From the NCBI RefSeq assembly GCF_900103715.1, contig NZ_FNHL01000003.1:62001-126000 (forward strand): a stretch of DNA of 64,000 nucleotides, in the 5' to 3' direction. Source of the DNA: Halogranum gelatinilyticum. Lineage in GTDB: Archaea > Halobacteriota > Halobacteria > Halobacteriales > Haloferacaceae. Positions 53,135 to 61,214 of this stretch are shown piece by piece (position 1 is the first letter of the stretch; every line of letters starts with the position of its first letter). The notes under the pieces are model-generated. The model worked only from the letters and a program-made list of their open reading frames with translations. It was not told the origin of the DNA and ran no database searches. Made by a program: the position numbers and the translations under genes.

Positions 53135-55975
53135 TCAGTCCCAGAACGACTTCGTCCGCGCGAACTGCCGCTCTTGGGCCAGGATGTCCCGGTAGAAGTC
53201 GTCTTCGTCCTCGCGCAACTTGGAGATGATGCGCGCGGCGTTGTGTGGGCCGACCCCGCGGGCCGCGAGCGCGACGACGGCACGCTTGCCGTGACTTTGG
53301 ACCAGATTCGCCGATTTGTAGGCGCGCTGGACCAACTCCTCCTGCTCCTCGTCTCTATCCTGCGATTTGACGGCCTGGACGGTGTCGTCGGCCCAGGGAT
53401 TCAACGCCGCGACGCGCGTCGACTCGCAGTTCGGACACTCGGGTTGCTCGCGGACGCGCCGGACCTTCGTCTTCCGCGACCACTCCCGGCAGTGCAGACA
53501 GACGAGGATGACGCGGTCGTTCTGGATGCGCTCTCTGACCGTCTCGATGACACTCGCATCGGCGTTCTCGGGAACGAGGAAGTCCCGGCCGCTGGAGTTG
53601 CCCGCGATACCGACGGGCGTCCGCTCGCGGGCGACGACGAGGTCGATGTCACCCGACTGCATCTGGGCCAGGATTTCGGCCGTCTCCTCGACCGCGAGGT
53701 CGGTGTGGAAGACCTCCCTGACTGCCTCGTCGTAGACGGGCGTGTCCTTCAGTGCTGCGAGCAGGCGGTCGCCGCCGAAGCGCTTGCGCCCCTGATACCG
53801 CTTCAGCGACCCGAACTTCGCGGCGACCTGCGCCAGCGTGAACTTCAACGAGTCGGCGTTCTTCAACGCGAGTTCGAGTAGCCCCTCGATGTGGGCGGGG
53901 TCGGTCGATTCGAGGACTTCCACGAACTCGTTCGGGCCGACCTTCGAGGGCACCTCGAACTCGATACGGTAGGGGTCGACCTCCATCCCGACCGACGAGC
54001 CGGTGCGCTGGGCGATGAGTGCCGAGAGGAGGCGTCCGAAGGTCTCGTTGATTTTGTGGCCGAAACAGGCGTTGACGACGACGGTTCTGCCCTGTCCCTC
54101 GACGACGACGCGGTCGTGCGTCGGTATCGGCGTGCCGGCCTCGGCCTGCCGTTCGAGCAGTTCCAACGCCTCGCTGACGGTGTAGTCGTCCGTCGGATAC
54201 CGCCGGACGAACTCGGACGTGACGCCCGCTCGCGGCGCGCCGCGCTCGAACTGCGGCCCGGCGACGCCGCGCATCTCGCCGACCTCTTGGGCGACGGGTT
54301 TCGGGACCGGAATCTCCGATCCGACCCACGAGGGGACCTCGCCCGTGGGGTCCTCGATGGGCGTGACGTTGACCTCGCCCTCGTCCTCGTCGATGTCGTT
54401 GATGCGCCACATCTCGCCGCGCTGGATGAACACCTCGCCCGGTTCGGCGAAGTTGACGACGAACTTCTCGTCGAGCGTGCCGATCTGCTTCCGTGAGGAG
54501 ATGTCGTGGACGTCGTAGGTCTCCTCGTCGGGAATCATCGACAGATTGGCGTAGAAATACTGCCACGTCCCGCCGGACTTCTCCAGCAGGTCCTTCTCCT
54601 CGTTCAGCCAGAGCAAACGATTCCCGTGGAGTTCGCGGACGACCTCGCGGAACTGTTCTTCCGACAAGTCACGGAAGGGATAGGCGTCGGTGAGGAGGTC
54701 GTAGGTCTCGCGAGCACTCACCTCGCCGTGGTCCATCACGCAGCCGACGATCTGGTTCGCGACGACGTCGAGACTGCCGTGGTGGATGTGGGCCGGTTCG
54801 ACCTCCCCCGCTTCGGCGCGGCGGGCGATGGCCAGTGCCTCGAAGGTGTCGTCGGCGTCGCTGGTGACGACGGTCCCCTCGCTGACGAGACCGAGGCGGT
54901 GGCCCGCGCGGCCGACTCGCTGGAGTAAGCGAGCGACCTCCCGAGGGCTGCCGTACTGGACGACGTGGTCGACCCGGCCCACGTCGATGCCGAGTTCCAT
55001 CGAGGAGGTACAGATGAGCCCGTCCAGCTCGCCGGATTTGAATGCGTCTTCGACCTCGATACGGGCCTCTTTCGAGAGCGACCCGTGGTGGACGCCGACG
55101 GGTGCGTCGAGTTTCTTGAAGTGCGCGCCGAGTGCTTCGGCGGTCTGACGCGTGTTGACGAAGACGAGCGTCGAGGTGTGTTCCTCGACCAAGTTGCGAA
55201 TCGCCCGCACGTGGCTGGCGAGTTCCGCGTCGGTCGCGAGTTTCCCCGAGAGCCGTTCGTCCTCGTCGGTCACGCGCGGATGGGTAACGGTGAAGTCGAC
55301 GCGGTTGTCGACGTCGACCTCGACGATGGTGAAGTCGCAGTCGCCGGTGAGGAACTTCGCGACCTCCGCGGGCGAGCCGACCGTCGCCGAGAGGCCGATA
55401 CGCTGGTAGTCGCCGGCGAGTTGGCCGAGTCGCTCGAAGGCGACGGTCAACTGCGCACCGCGCTTCGAGGAGGCGAGTTCGTGGACCTCATCGACGACGA
55501 CGTGGTGAACGTCCGAGAGTGCCGTCCGGAGTTTCTTCCCGGTCAGCATCGCCTGGAGGGTTTCGGGCGTCGTCACGAGCACGTCCGGCGGGTCGTCGGC
55601 CTGCTTGCCCCGCTGGTACTGCGTGGTGTCGCCGTGCCGAACATCGATATCGAGGTCGAGATAGTCGCCCCACCAGTCGAGGCGATCGCGCATATCACGG
55701 TTGAGCGCGCGGAGCGGCGTGATGTAGAGCGCGGAGATACCGAAGCGGTCCTCGGCCTCCGCAATCGAGTCGAAGACCGGCAGCATCGCCGTCTCCGTCT
55801 TCCCCGTGCCGGTGGGGGCGATGACGAGCGCGTTGTCTCCGGCGGCGAGCGGCGGGATGGCTCGTCGCTGCGGCTCCGTCGGCGTCGAGAACCCACGCTC
55901 GGAGAGCGCGCCGCGGACGGCGTCGCCGAGATGCGTGAAGGCGTCGACACCGGTCTGCGTCTCGCCGTCTGGCAT
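53135..55975 (-). CDS. lhr: Lhr-type DNA/RNA helicase (DEAD/DEAH family)
   Basis: 946 residues. Motifs: Walker A APTGTGKTET (residues 53-62), Ia TPLRALN, II DEVH, III SATVG, IV-VI HHGSLSKEAR, ICTSSMELGID and QRVGRAGHRLG. The Lhr core continues with a winged helix and a beta-barrel (PGEVFIQRGEMWRINDID). A zinc cluster CLHCREW...CPNCES (near residue 840) and a helical C-terminus follow, which the shorter bacterial Lhr-core lacks. It translocates 3' to 5' on DNA and unwinds forks and hybrids in other archaea. A TATA box at 56000 is 28 bases from the ATG. It lies near the RPA operon, but in a separate unit. Confidence 0.92.
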   Translation of the reverse strand: MPDGETQTGVDAFTHLGDAVRGALSERGFSTPTEPQRRAIPPLAAGDNALVIAPTGTGKTETAMLPVFDSIAEAEDRFGISALYITPLRALNRDMRDRLDWWGDYLDLDIDVRHGDTTQYQRGKQADDPPDVLVTTPETLQAMLTGKKLRTALSDVHHVVVDEVHELASSKRGAQLTVAFERLGQLAGDYQRIGLSATVGSPAEVAKFLTGDCDFTIVEVDVDNRVDFTVTHPRVTDEDERLSGKLATDAELASHVRAIRNLVEEHTSTLVFVNTRQTAEALGAHFKKLDAPVGVHHGSLSKEARIEVEDAFKSGELDGLICTSSMELGIDVGRVDHVVQYGSPREVARLLQRVGRAGHRLGLVSEGTVVTSDADDTFEALAIARRAEAGEVEPAHIHHGSLDVVANQIVGCVMDHGEVSARETYDLLTDAYPFRDLSEEQFREVVRELHGNRLLWLNEEKDLLEKSGGTWQYFYANLSMIPDEETYDVHDISSRKQIGTLDEKFVVNFAEPGEVFIQRGEMWRINDIDEDEGEVNVTPIEDPTGEVPSWVGSEIPVPKPVAQEVGEMRGVAGPQFERGAPRAGVTSEFVRRYPTDDYTVSEALELLERQAEAGTPIPTHDRVVVEGQGRTVVVNACFGHKINETFGRLLSALIAQRTGSSVGMEVDPYRIEFEVPSKVGPNEFVEVLESTDPAHIEGLLELALKNADSLKFTLAQVAAKFGSLKRYQGRKRFGGDRLLAALKDTPVYDEAVREVFHTDLAVEETAEILAQMQSGDIDLVVARERTPVGIAGNSSGRDFLVPENADASVIETVRERIQNDRVILVCLHCREWSRKTKVRRVREQPECPNCESTRVAALNPWADDTVQAVKSQDRDEEQEELVQRAYKSANLVQSHGKRAVVALAARGVGPHNAARIISKLREDEDDFYRDILAQERQFARTKSFWD

Positions 55976-56899: not shown

Positions 56900-57664
56900 T
56901 CAGACCCGACGGTAGTCACCCAAGCGCGTCCCGTCAAGCAGGTAGGCTTCGCCGTCGACGAGACCTTCGGGAAGGAACGGCGAGAGAAATCCCTGACCCT
57001 CGACGTTGACGTACGTCCCGCCCGAGCGGTCGTTGAACGCCGGGAAGACGACGAGGTCCGGGTCGTGCCAGTCCAAGTCGGCGGCGTCGACACCGAGACC
57101 CTCGGCGAAGACGTCCCTCGCCAGCGAGCCACGGAGCCACGCCTTCTCGGTCCGGCTGCCGCCGACGGCGTCGGTCAGGCGAACCGTCGGATGCTCGTGG
57201 CCCGTACAGACCGTCGGCGCGCTCAGGACCGCTTCGCTCGGCCAGGTGTGGCCGTGGGCGAAGCCGACGTCACCCAGCCTGACGCCCGAGCCGGGCGTCA
57301 CGTCGACGCGGGCGGCGACGACGTCGGCGAGACCAGCGTCGTGGTTGCCCGTCACGAGCGTCATCGCCACGCGGTCCGTGACGGCGTCGACGAGCGTGTT
57401 CAACTCCGCGAGTTCGTCGCCCTTCGGGTCGCCGATGCGGTGGCCGAGGTCGCCGAGGACGACGAGCCTGTCCGCACCGGTTTCGGCGAGCAGCGACAGC
57501 AGTCGCTCACGGCGGCTGTCGGCGTCGCTCGGGAGTTCGACCCCGCGCTCGTAGCGCAACGCGGCTTCGATGCCGACGTGGACGTCGGCGACGACGAGTG
57601 CCCGCTCGTGGCCGAGGTCGGCGACGGCGGCGGGCTGGCGGGGGAGCGGTTCGACCGTGGGCAC
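56900..57664 (-). CDS. rpe: RPA-associated phosphoesterase
   Basis: 254 residues, calcineurin-type metallophosphoesterase. Motifs: VADVHVG (residues 25-31), VLGDLGH (about 69-75), TGNHDAG (about 103), HGHTWP (about 135) and GHEHP (about 154). It is the third gene of an operon rpa1-rpap1-rpe that is known from Haloferax volcanii, where this enzyme is named for its association with RPA1. Only 3 bases separate it from rpap1. It is homologous to the PdeM/SbcD-like nucleases that accompany Lhr and DNA ligases in bacteria; nuclease activity on ssDNA is a fair guess. Confidence 0.9.
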   Translation of the reverse strand: MPTVEPLPRQPAAVADLGHERALVVADVHVGIEAALRYERGVELPSDADSRRERLLSLLAETGADRLVVLGDLGHRIGDPKGDELAELNTLVDAVTDRVAMTLVTGNHDAGLADVVAARVDVTPGSGVRLGDVGFAHGHTWPSEAVLSAPTVCTGHEHPTVRLTDAVGGSRTEKAWLRGSLARDVFAEGLGVDAADLDWHDPDLVVFPAFNDRSGGTYVNVEGQGFLSPFLPEGLVDGEAYLLDGTRLGDYRRV

Positions 57665-57667
57665 GGC

Positions 57668-59497
57668 TCAGATGGCCTTCAGCTGGTCCTCGTTCGGCTC
57701 GTAGCACTGGCCGTTCATCAGCGCGTCCTGAATCGCGTCCTCGACGGCTCCGGGGTCGACGCCGTACTCGTCGACGACGGCCGCGACGACCGCCTCGCGG
57801 GAGGCACCGTCGCCGTCGTCGAGGTCGCTCATCGCCGCGACCGCGGCGTCTTCGAGGTCGACGTCCGCGGCGTCGGCGGTGTCAGCGGCGTCCGCGGTGT
57901 CGTCCGCGCTGTCTGCGTCGGCATCTGCCGACGGTGCTGCGGTGGCCGGTTCGTCCTCTTCGGCCTCTTCGGTCTCGGAGTCGGCTGCGTCCAACTCGGA
58001 TTCGAGGTCGTCGGCGTCGGGCACGTCGATATCCGCCTCGCCGGGTTCGCCGACCTCGCTGCCGGTCGAGAACTCGGTACCGAACTCGGCTTCGACCTCT
58101 TTGCGCTCCTCCTCGGGCAGTTCGTACATCCCGCTGTCGTCGGTTTCCCCCGTTTCGGTCCCTGAGTCCGCTGGTTCTGTCGTCCCGTCTTCGTCGTCGA
58201 AGTCGCCGAGACCACTCTCCGTGTCTGCGTCGTCGTCGAAGTCTCCCAGGTCGTCGTCGAAGTCGCTGAGTCCGGAGTCCGTGCTGGTTTCGGCTTCGCT
58301 CTCAGTGTCGTCGAAGTCACCCAGACCAGAGTCGGCGGTCCCGGTGGCTTCCGCGGGTTCGGCCGCCACGTCGTCCGCTTCGGTGGCGGAGTCGTCGACG
58401 AGCGTCTCGGTCGAACCGGCAGCGTCGGTCTCCGCCGCAGCCGACTCGGTCGGTGTCTCGGCGACCGGTTCGGCGTCCGTCTCCTCGACCGGGTCGGGGT
58501 CGGTGGCGGTGTCGGACGTCGGCTCTGCCCCGGTGTCGGTCGCGCTGACGGCTTCCGCAGGTTCGGCAGCGGTCTCAGCGGTCTCGTCCGCTTCTTCGCT
58601 GGCAGCCTCGTCGACGAGCGTCTCTGTCGATGCAGCGGCGTCCGTCTCGGCCGCGACGGAGTCGTCGACTTGCGGTTCGTCGGGTTCGTCGACCGGTTCG
58701 TCAGGCTCGACTGCCGGTTCGGAGACTTCCGCGGGCGTCTCGATCTCCGGCGCGTCGCCGAGGTCGACCGCGGGCAGCGGACCGAGCACCACGTCGCCGC
58801 CCTCGCCGGGTGCGAAGTCGAGCGAGCGGACCTCTTCGCGGTCGCCGGTGACGACCTCCAGCGCGTCGACGGCGAGCTGTCGGACGGCTTCGAGGTAGGC
58901 GCGGCTAGTACCGTAGTGGTCGATGGCGAGCGGGATGCCCGAGGCCAGCGACGGCGTCACGCCGCGGGCTTCGAGTTCGCGGGCGAGCGCGTCGCCGCGG
59001 TTCTCGGAGTCGAGTGCTTCGTCGAAGACGGCGACCCGTTCGAGCGTTGCTCTCGCGGTCGTGACGACCCACCGGTCGCGGGTGTCGCCGTCGACGTCGT
59101 TCAGACTCTCGGGGCGGACCGAGGTGAACACGCGGTCGGAGTCCTCCGGTTCGAACGTCCGGGCCTTCCCGGTCAGCGCGAGGAACGCTGGCGGAGTCGT
59201 GCGGTCGAGGAACGCCATCTCGTCGGGCTGGTACTGCCCGGCGTAGCTGACGAACGCGCCCGTCGGGTCGGCGAGCCGCCCTCGGAGCACGTCGTCGTTG
59301 ACGGGTTCTTTCTCGGTCAGGACGCCCACTGCGAAGAGGCGGTTGACGCGAGCACCCGTCGGGGTGACGACGTAGTTCGGCGCGCGCTCCTCGTCGCTCT
59401 CGGAGTACGAGAGGGAGGCGTCGTCGAACTCGGCGGCGAAGAGACGGTGGGCGACCTCGCGGCGGCCCGGACCGTTGTCCCCGTCGTCCGCGCTCAT
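57668..59497 (-). CDS. rpap1: RPA-associated protein with long acidic linker
   Basis: 609 residues. N-terminal domain (1-215, RREVAHRLFAAEFDDASLSY; GQYQPDEMAFLDRT) is the COG3390/RPA41-type OB domain that partners RPA1. Residues about 225-540 are a disordered acidic linker of Asp/Glu/Ser/Thr/Ala, holding four F-containing repeats of the form GLGDFDD (about residues 390-440). The last 60 residues (REAVVAAVVDEYGVDPGAVEDAIQDALMNGQCYEPNEDQLKAI) form a winged-helix like that at the end of RPA32. Co-translated with rpa1 (ATGA overlap at 59494-59497). Rpap1 binds RPA1 and is needed for its function in Haloferax. Confidence 0.9.
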   Translation of the reverse strand: MSADDGDNGPGRREVAHRLFAAEFDDASLSYSESDEERAPNYVVTPTGARVNRLFAVGVLTEKEPVNDDVLRGRLADPTGAFVSYAGQYQPDEMAFLDRTTPPAFLALTGKARTFEPEDSDRVFTSVRPESLNDVDGDTRDRWVVTTARATLERVAVFDEALDSENRGDALARELEARGVTPSLASGIPLAIDHYGTSRAYLEAVRQLAVDALEVVTGDREEVRSLDFAPGEGGDVVLGPLPAVDLGDAPEIETPAEVSEPAVEPDEPVDEPDEPQVDDSVAAETDAAASTETLVDEAASEEADETAETAAEPAEAVSATDTGAEPTSDTATDPDPVEETDAEPVAETPTESAAAETDAAGSTETLVDDSATEADDVAAEPAEATGTADSGLGDFDDTESEAETSTDSGLSDFDDDLGDFDDDADTESGLGDFDDEDGTTEPADSGTETGETDDSGMYELPEEERKEVEAEFGTEFSTGSEVGEPGEADIDVPDADDLESELDAADSETEEAEEDEPATAAPSADADADSADDTADAADTADAADVDLEDAAVAAMSDLDDGDGASREAVVAAVVDEYGVDPGAVEDAIQDALMNGQCYEPNEDQLKAI

Positions 59498-60777
59498 GCC
59501 TTCACCTCCGTGACGCCGACTTCAGCAAGCAGCTCGCGGGCGCGGTCGGCCGGGTCGTCGTCGGACTCGGCGAACTCCTCGGCGTCGAGGTTCGCGCCGT
59601 ACTCGTCGACCGAGAGGTTGCCCCGGACCCGGAACTCCAGGCCGACGATCTCCTCTCGGATGGCGTCGGCGACGACCTCCTTGTCCATCGCGTCGCGGGC
59701 GGCTTCCTTCGCGTCGGTGACGTCGCCGCCGTAGACGCGCTCGGTGAGGTCGGCGTCGAGCACGACGGTGACGGTGTCGGTGCCGTCGTCGAGGATGCCT
59801 TTCACGCGCAGGTCGTCCTCACCCTCGACCGCACCGTGGCTCCGGCACTGGCCGTTCTGGATGACGCGGGCGCACTCCGGACAGCGCTCGATGAGGCCCG
59901 AGCCGTCGCGCACCGCCAGGAGATTGCCGACGACTTCGACGTCGAACATCCCGCCGCTGTCGACGGCCTCGCGGACCGAGAGCTTGGGCGCGGAGTCGTT
60001 GACTGCGACCGGGCTCGCGAGTTCGGTGACCGTCGAGAACTCGGAGAGGTTGACCGAGGGAACGCCGCGGAACTCACGGATGTAGACGTCCTCGATACGG
60101 AGGCTCGCACCCTCTTCGATCTCTGTGTGGGGGTCCCAGTCGGTGAACGGCAGTCGGGCACTCTCATCGCCGACGACGCCCGAGAGGATGTCGGTGTCGC
60201 CATCGCGGCCGTTGATGGTCCGCTCTTCGACTTCGAGCACTTGGACCTCGACGTTGCGGCCGCGGTCGCCGGGTTCGAGGTCGAGCAGGTCGGCGTCGCC
60301 GCCGACGGGGTACTCGACGTCGACCTCCTCGGACGCCATCGCGACGGTCGAACTGTCGTTGAGGTTCAGTTCGGGTTTGCCGTCCCATTCGCGGATGCCC
60401 GCGTTGCCGATGGTGATGGAGTCGCCGGCCTCGAAGCCGAAGTCCTGCCACGCGGTGTAGGAGACCTTCCCCGTCCCGTCGGCGAGTTCGCCTTCGCGGA
60501 TGGTGATGTCGTCGCCCTGATACCGGATGGTCCGGGTCCCGGCGGTCAACACCCGGACGGTCACGTTGACGCTGCCGTCCTCGGTGGTGATGTCGGCGAC
60601 GTCCTTCGACGAGGGTGTGCTGCCGCCACCACCACCGCCGTGTTTCCGTCGGATGCTCTGTTTCGCCTCGTCCAGCGGCACGCTGTACTGGACCAGGTTC
60701 TCTAAGTCTTCCTTGACCTCCTCTTTGTCAACGCCGAGAGCGGAGGCGAGCTCCTCGGCATGGTCGTCTAACTGCAT
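59494..60777 (-). CDS. rpa1: Replication protein A, multi-OB-fold ssDNA-binding subunit
   Basis: 427 residues from the ATG ending at 60777. N-terminal helices (DDHAEELASALGVDKEEVKEDLENLV), then OB folds near residues 60-160, 165-265 and 270-370, and a zinc finger CPECARVIQNGQCRSHG (near residue 297). This multi-OB-plus-zinc architecture is the RPA1 type. It protects single-stranded DNA in replication and repair. A TATA box 28 bases upstream (60802) makes the second Met the start; the ATG at 60798 would precede transcription. The operon continues with rpap1 and rpe. Confidence 0.92.
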   Translation of the reverse strand: MQLDDHAEELASALGVDKEEVKEDLENLVQYSVPLDEAKQSIRRKHGGGGGGSTPSSKDVADITTEDGSVNVTVRVLTAGTRTIRYQGDDITIREGELADGTGKVSYTAWQDFGFEAGDSITIGNAGIREWDGKPELNLNDSSTVAMASEEVDVEYPVGGDADLLDLEPGDRGRNVEVQVLEVEERTINGRDGDTDILSGVVGDESARLPFTDWDPHTEIEEGASLRIEDVYIREFRGVPSVNLSEFSTVTELASPVAVNDSAPKLSVREAVDSGGMFDVEVVGNLLAVRDGSGLIERCPECARVIQNGQCRSHGAVEGEDDLRVKGILDDGTDTVTVVLDADLTERVYGGDVTDAKEAARDAMDKEVVADAIREEIVGLEFRVRGNLSVDEYGANLDAEEFAESDDDPADRARELLAEVGVTEVKA

Positions 60778-61214
60778 CAGCCACGGCTTGGTCCCCATGC
60801 GTTAAAAACCGTTGCACGCGGGAAGCCGGCCCACACCATTGGACGGAGACACGACGGCGTGAGACTGGGCCACCGGTACGGCGCGTGGCTTCGTGCCGTC
60901 TCGTCGGCGCGAGCCACTCGTGCGAGGGATGAGCGAACGAGCCTGCGAGTGAGCGAATCGGCTGGTGAGGGTGTGGCCGTGCCGTCGGGTGGGACTGAAA
61001 GGGGACGCGTTCTCGACGAAGGCAGGCGACGTAAGCACTGGAGCGAACGAAGTGAGCGAAGCGCGCAGCGAGCCTCCCGAGTCGAGAACGCGTGGGCTTT
61101 CTGAATGTTTTCGACTCCACTGACCACAACCGAGTCAGCACCGAGTCTGACGAAAGCCACCAAAAACTCATCTCGGCACGAACTGCTAAGTGCCCTCGCC
61201 TTCGACACGACTCC
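60778..61214. other. 437-bp region without a supported gene, containing a 13-bp inverted repeat
   Basis: The only clear structure is ACGCGTTCTCGAC (61005-61017) inverted as GTCGAGAACGCGT (61081-61093). Between them is a GAGCGAACGAAGTGAGCGAAGCGCG-type segment (about 61041-61070) typical of haloarchaeal intergenic DNA. Open frames across it look like shadows. The left end is the rpa1 promoter and the right end the promoter of the gene at 61215 (GCTAAGTG 28 bases ahead). Confidence 0.55.
60802..60808 (-). promoter_or_regulatory. TATA box of the rpa1 operon
   Basis: TTTTTAA on the minus strand, 28 bases from the second in-frame ATG (60777) and only 7 from the first. Confidence 0.6.

Follow-up and report, generated by a model that had tools for sequence, protein, structure and literature searches.

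A candidate docking peptide, LG[DE]F[DE], in the acidic linker insertion of the haloarchaeal RPA32-type subunit Rpap1

We describe a short peptide, LG[DE]F[DE], in the long acidic linker of Rpap1, the haloarchaeal Rpa2/RPA32-type subunit encoded beside rpa1. The starting point was a 64-kb stretch of the Halogranum gelatinilyticum genome (hereafter, the window), in which rpap1 is a single open reading frame (ORF) of 609 aa (57668-59497, minus strand). The motif is conserved among orthologues far beyond what the composition of the linker yields, and the linker that carries it stands as an insertion between an OB fold and a winged helix. We put forward, as a tentative proposal, that LG[DE]F[DE] is an archaeal docking peptide that has not been described before, class-wide and multivalent, which evolved within the inserted linker of the haloarchaeal RPA32 subunit, is convergent with the bacterial SSB tail, and has as neighbors the winged helix and another docking element (the “MYEL island”).

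Haloarchaea are a main genetic model for archaeal replication, and little has been reported, to our knowledge, on partner recruitment by their RPA complexes. The exact positions of a defined motif, together with an even better conserved island, make the linker tractable to mutagenesis and pull-down. Should the motif prove to dock, the Rpap1 linker would clearly exemplify the insertion of a prokaryotic linear motif into a replication hub, as a convergent counterpart of the bacterial SSB tail.

In the window protein, the acidic linker comprises residues 241-543 (57869-58777, minus strand), with 37% Asp and Glu and only two Lys or Arg. The sequence-only reading of this DNA had described four GLGDFDD-type motifs in an acidic linker of roughly 300 residues, and all four are there, in a linker of 303 residues: GLGDFDD at residues 391-397 (58307-58327), GLSDFDD at 409-415 (58253-58273), DLGDFDD at 416-422 (58232-58252) and GLGDFDD at 429-435 (58193-58213), each on the minus strand. 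Six Phe occur in the whole linker, four within these motifs and two within the conserved island. The Leu and Gly codons differ from copy to copy; for this reason, and because the TRF arrays are short (units of 9-24 bases) and none covers the four copies, tandem duplication of DNA was rejected as the source of the repeat. A second repeat, A[AG]STE[TS][LMV]VD ... AAEPAEA, is found twice in the window linker (58340-58660, minus strand), and a form of it appears in 8 of 97 orthologues, all from the window's family.

Conservation was measured in these 97 orthologues, of which 57 belong to the window's family and 40 to seven further families. The Rpap1 sequences of two congeners of the host are identical to those of Halogranum amylolyticum and Halogranum rubrum, in line with the genus of the window. 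The former represent 57 of 60 loci (L175 and L177 are truncated or frameshifted and L178 is unassembled; in genome G012 only a paralogue was found), and the latter were taken from 71 matching genomes and picked for spread over genera. Entry to the set required the conserved island, and the motif statistics exclude, as biased, the loci from a search whose six seed patterns included DFDDTESE. First and second linkers were counted separately; 300 composition-preserving shuffles served as the chance baseline for LG[DE]F[DE]. The pattern occurs 63 times, in 50 of the 97 first linkers, against a shuffle mean of 0.03 and a maximum of 1 in 300, counts that are not independent events since the orthologue sequences are related. 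Second linkers hold 10 occurrences (10/97), and over the whole region from core to winged helix 64 of the 97 proteins have the motif. A looser form, [LIV]G.[FW], is present in 81 proteins (shuffle mean 2.37, maximum 7); the 16 that lack any such match show that the motif is dispensable for the family as a whole.

A word count, which involves no prior choice of pattern, gives the same answer. Among the four-residue words of the linkers, LGDF is enriched most strongly, with 62 of the 97 proteins having it versus 0.05 expected; of the eight words ranked next, all but LDDF belong to the same extended motif. Phe accounts for 1% of the residues in the linkers, and around the 201 linker Phe of the orthologue set Leu stands at -3 in 58%, Gly at -2 in 61%, Asp at -1 in 61% and Asp at +1 in 56%, with Asp at +2 in only 29%. 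Altogether 111 of these 201 Phe lie within [LIV]G.F, and Trp and Tyr are nearly absent from the linkers. Copy number per protein runs from 0 to 5, with 100 copies upstream of the island and 17 downstream. By family, LG[DE]F[DE] is present in 42/57 (f1), 5/8 (f2), 5/11 (f3), 11/14 (f4), 0/1 (f6), 0/3 (f7), 1/2 (f8) and 0/1 (f9) proteins. Individual copies differ in how well they align: the Phe of the window protein is matched by orthologues at a fraction of 0.02 for copy 1, 0.05 for copy 2, 0.51 for copy 3 (the best-aligned) and 0.46 for copy 4, and across genera copies 1 and 2 have no alignment with an orthologue Phe.

These data bear on how the motif should be written. The sequence-only reading had staked its case on GLGDFDD being conserved rather than a product of random acidic linker, and for the core, kept in 64 of 97 proteins, that expectation holds. 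The DFDD form fares much worse: it is found in only 14 of 97 orthologues (1.82 expected), all in the window's family, and comes close to being unconserved. From the orthologue sequences, the motif is therefore better stated as LG[DE]F[DE] than as GLGDFDD. It has the properties of a short linear motif, being a conserved, composition-independent peptide in a region predicted to be disordered, and literature searches, by motif letters among others, found no account of it.

Within the host genome, both strands together, four sites match the LGDF[DE][DE] codon pattern: three lie in rpap1, and the fourth is antisense to another ORF, which by eye we take to be a thermosome subunit. A shorter pattern, LGDF[DE] with CTN Leu codons only (TTA and TTG fall outside it), has 13 sites, of which three are in Rpap1; none of the other 10, judged by eye, lies in an acidic linker, and several are antisense or out of frame. 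The DNA pattern for LGDFD[DE] is present in 47 of 60 genomes of the window's family, and among 29 such sites that we read, two are Rpap1 and most others apparently antisense. Paralogues were rejected as further carriers, the motif being absent from the ORFs read for the Rpap3-like gene of the host and for OB-only paralogues of two other genomes.

The protein around the linker resembles the archaeal Rpa2 subunit. Its N-terminal OB fold and helical region (residues 11-234; 58796-59467, minus strand) were modeled with AlphaFold using 65 orthologues; the model has strands and helices as far as residue 217, most of them at high confidence, and disorder after that. The best structural match of this core is P. 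abyssi Rpa2 (8aas_B; Z 16.0, 173 residues aligned, rmsd 2.4), followed by Stn1 and human RPA32 (2pi2_D, Z 11.9). The C-terminal winged helix (residues 544-609; 57671-57868, minus strand) is confident from about residue 548, with pLDDT above 90, in two structure predictions. It matches P. abyssi Rpa2 (9f27) at Z 10.1, a score reached equally by winged helices of MCM and linker histone H1; by sequence, P. abyssi RPA32 accounts for each of its five top PDB matches, at weak E values of 0.1-0.16. The predicted structure thus has the N-terminal OB fold with an adjoining helix and the C-terminal winged helix by which Rpa2/RPA32 is recognized. On this modeled fold, Rpap1 is the haloarchaeal Rpa2/RPA32-type subunit of a putative Rpa1-Rpap1 single-stranded DNA (ssDNA)-binding complex. 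The names Rpap1 and Rpe are those of the sequence-only reading. Published remote-homology work on the H. volcanii protein, for which the name Rpap1 is also in use, agrees with this fold, and binding between Rpa1 and Rpap1 is reported there as well (PMC8329085).

Rpap1 of the window shares with archaeal Rpa2/RPA32 proteins (P. abyssi, H. volcanii Rpap1) the OB core, the following helix, the C-terminal winged helix and the adjacent rpa1. The Thermococcales protein is also described as having an acidic linker ahead of its winged helix (PMC11686378); relative to the archaeal Rpa2/RPA32 described there, the window linker is about 10 times longer and differs in carrying the repeated LG[DE]F[DE] and the conserved island. 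For P. abyssi, the Rpa2 winged helix is reported to bind the primase PriSL and also PolD, and alanine in place of the 12 glutamates of the linker to weaken primase stimulation, with long primase products down by 15-45% (PMC11686378). The effect of that mutant suggests that the linker is plausibly a working part and not mere rope.

Most of the linker has pLDDT below 50, and the motif copies are unstructured in both structure predictions. The only helices predicted within it, at residues 462-472 and 495-503, fall inside the conserved island (residues 453-505; 57983-58141, minus strand; MYELPEEERKEVEAEFGTEFSTGSEVGEPGEADIDVPDADDLE). This element of 53 residues, with the pattern MYEL-x-EEER...EFGTEFSTG...PGEADIDVPD, occurs in 97 of 99 ORFs having the OB core, the two misses being truncated or frameshifted; its profile was trained on 82 of the 97, which leaves just 15 out-of-sample finds. 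Against the window protein, mean identity is 0.61 and 0.59 for the two halves of the island, 0.22 for the motif zone and 0.66 for the winged helix. By this alignment, the island is better conserved than the motifs. The sequence-only reading made no mention of it. In some orthologues a motif copy lies directly against the island, for instance in L055 (“...DDLGDFDPEFELDEDERE”) and L193, and four of the eight f2 proteins (L180, L182, L184 and L186) have a further pattern, DDLDDFTE-x-x-YDE, on its C-terminal side.

Relatives outside the haloarchaea, from the same phylum, bear on the origin of the linker. Of 11 such loci, 10 were readable, and we measured the distance to the winged-helix Cys from a landmark within the final helix of the core. 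It is 84-120 residues in nine loci (the tenth, L303, is similar by eye) versus 261-499 residues, with a median of 372, in the 84 of 97 haloarchaeal proteins in which the landmark pattern was found; haloarchaeal linkers are very roughly 170-400 residues long. The motif is absent from the nine non-haloarchaeal relatives. Because the junction between core and winged helix is short and lacks the motif outside the haloarchaea, sequence comparison makes the linker, with its motif, an insertion by haloarchaea between the two domains. The domains also occur in other combinations: in the host genome, a 392-aa protein (L003, C2:487617-487817) has an unrelated N-terminal part fused to a terminal Rpap1-like winged helix, two genomes encode several extra OB-only Rpap paralogues (L261, L262, L263, L264, L265), and at L263 an Rpa1-like reading frame is joined to an OB-only paralogue.

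The genes around rpap1 are on the same strand. Upstream, rpa1 (59494-60798, minus strand; NF005554, E 3.3e-197), for the partner ssDNA-binding protein, overlaps rpap1 by ATGA; rpe, for a calcineurin-like phosphoesterase (56900-57664, minus strand; PF00149, E 2.8e-6), follows rpap1, and beyond it lies an Lhr-type helicase gene (53135-55975, minus strand; WH_Lhr PF19306, E 4.6e-17), given here as context only. Among the 80 haloarchaeal loci whose flanks we fetched, rpa1 adjoins rpap1 in all 80, and the order rpa1-rpap1-rpe is kept in 77, the remaining three contigs stopping before rpe.

That LG[DE]F[DE] is a selected short linear motif docking a putative partner in trans, with avidity from copy number, is our best reading, to which we give even credence. 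The linker carries between 0 and 5 copies of (D/G)-L-G-[DE]-F-[DE], whose Leu and Phe, spaced i and i+3, would fit into a small, basic-rimmed hydrophobic pocket of the partner; acidic flanks would supply long-range attraction and copy number avidity, so that the linker could tether a replication or repair factor to RPA-coated ssDNA, alongside whatever the winged helix binds. Several observations argue for this: the excess of LGDF and LG[DE]F[DE] over expectation, a peptide that is kept while its copies shift in position and number, as docking motifs do, the differing codons, host coding sites of LGDF[DE][DE] found only in Rpap1, and the predicted disorder. The core and winged helix typical of RPA hub subunits, the P. 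abyssi winged-helix and linker data and the kept rpa1-rpap1-rpe order point the same way. Against it stand the 16 proteins without the motif, the unaligned copies 1 and 2, the failure of the motif to track Rpe or Lhr, and the unstructured state of the motifs in the predictions. Of the earlier suggestion that Rpa1's partner subunit supplies several copies of a recruitment peptide, the selected, repeated motif stands; recruitment, as docking, is its most economical reading.

The main rival of docking in trans is self-binding to RPA, which we consider unlikely, if still a serious contender. Here the acidic Leu/Phe peptides would mimic DNA and dock in the OB-fold DNA grooves of Rpa1 or Rpap1, in their own or a neighboring complex, and thus weaken ssDNA binding or cluster RPA until DNA displaces them. 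There are precedents, in that the E. coli SSB tip is reported to bind, in DNA-free protein, the DNA-binding domain of SSB itself (PMC7145534), and the archaeal acidic domain AROD, on OB-1, to cut the ssDNA affinity of isolated domains by a factor of about ten (PMC10122647); Rpa1 is also a constant neighbor. Like the motif zone, AROD is an acidic element of archaeal RPA, described as taking part in protein-protein contacts (PMC10122647), but it folds as a domain of three helices and belongs to Rpa1, whereas the motif zone is a disordered linker on the Rpa2-type subunit. However, AlphaFold of whole Rpap1 (with Rpa1 absent) showed no ordered docking to the OB fold of the same chain, and we rejected intramolecular docking, which neither structure prediction contains. 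Moreover, a pure DNA mimic requires acid and aromatics, not L-G at -3 and -2, yet Leu and Gly are among the most constrained positions.

It is improbable that the Phe residues are mainly stickers in an acidic spacer, whose repeats would adjust how far the winged helix reaches, or a multivalent, condensate-like clustering, without any one receptor. A copy number of 0 to 5 in a long disordered acidic spacer is what such a role would look like, but other contexts and aromatics should then be tolerated, and the near absence of Trp and Tyr and the concentration of Phe in [LIV]G.F speak against it.

The likeness to the tip of bacterial SSB, which the sequence-only reading had placed at the center, survives as a local GDFDD(D) resemblance. 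Both are acidic, disordered, Phe-bearing peptides on an ssDNA-binding protein and possibly serve the same role of recruitment handle. The SSB tip, however, is reported as the end of the chain, its last Phe filling a pocket on the partner (PMC4846377; PMC7145534), whereas the Rpap1 motif is internal (the last copy ends at residue 435 of 609), repeated, has L-G before Asp-Phe and lacks I/L-P-F. No [ILVM]PF was found in the linker regions of the 97 orthologues, the DFDDD-type Asp run after the inner Phe is present in the window and not general among orthologues, and the C-terminus is Ile in 97/97, reading LKAI, LKPI or LKSI in 93/97. Since the copies are internal, I/L-P-F is absent and DFDD is rare, in one family only, we reject the SSB tip as the family of this motif, which is an SSB tip neither in ancestry nor by definition. 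It is accordingly very doubtful that these are internal copies of a bacterial-type tail recruiting Rpe or Lhr. Rpe is adjacent wherever readable, yet it lies beside rpap1 in loci with and without the motif, so synteny cannot single it out; Lhr is not always adjacent and falls within the fetched flank at just 25 of 80 loci, and many Halorubrum loci have the motif and no Lhr in that flank (it may lie farther off). Across the 80 loci there was no usable correlation between the motif and the presence of Rpe or Lhr, and the proposal of either as the recruited partner is not borne out.

That the motif is a by-product of salt adaptation, with an acidic, low-complexity linker that non-haloarchaeal relatives lack drifting by chance onto DFD, is scarcely credible, and for the motif core it is ruled out by the shuffle and word counts (LGDF in 0.05 proteins for linkers of the same composition), the more so as the motif adds hydrophobic Leu and Phe, contrary to salt adaptation.

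Several features of the locus were seen along the way. The rpap1 stop and the rpe start are tightly spaced in most of loci L033-L112, often at -1, +2, +8 or +17 bases, which suggests translational coupling. The Lhr-type helicase (53135-55975) and the phosphoesterase (56900-57664) each give a sub-cut-off match to NCBIfam models (TIGR04121, TIGR04123) of a ligase-associated DNA damage response set. No match to Rpap1 was found among phages. Rpap1 is also encoded on haloarchaeal plasmids of about 160-400 kb (records H1-H11, L272), which presumably come mostly from Natrialbaceae genera, and on a plasmid of Natronorubrum daqingense the order rpa1-rpap1-phosphoesterase is intact.
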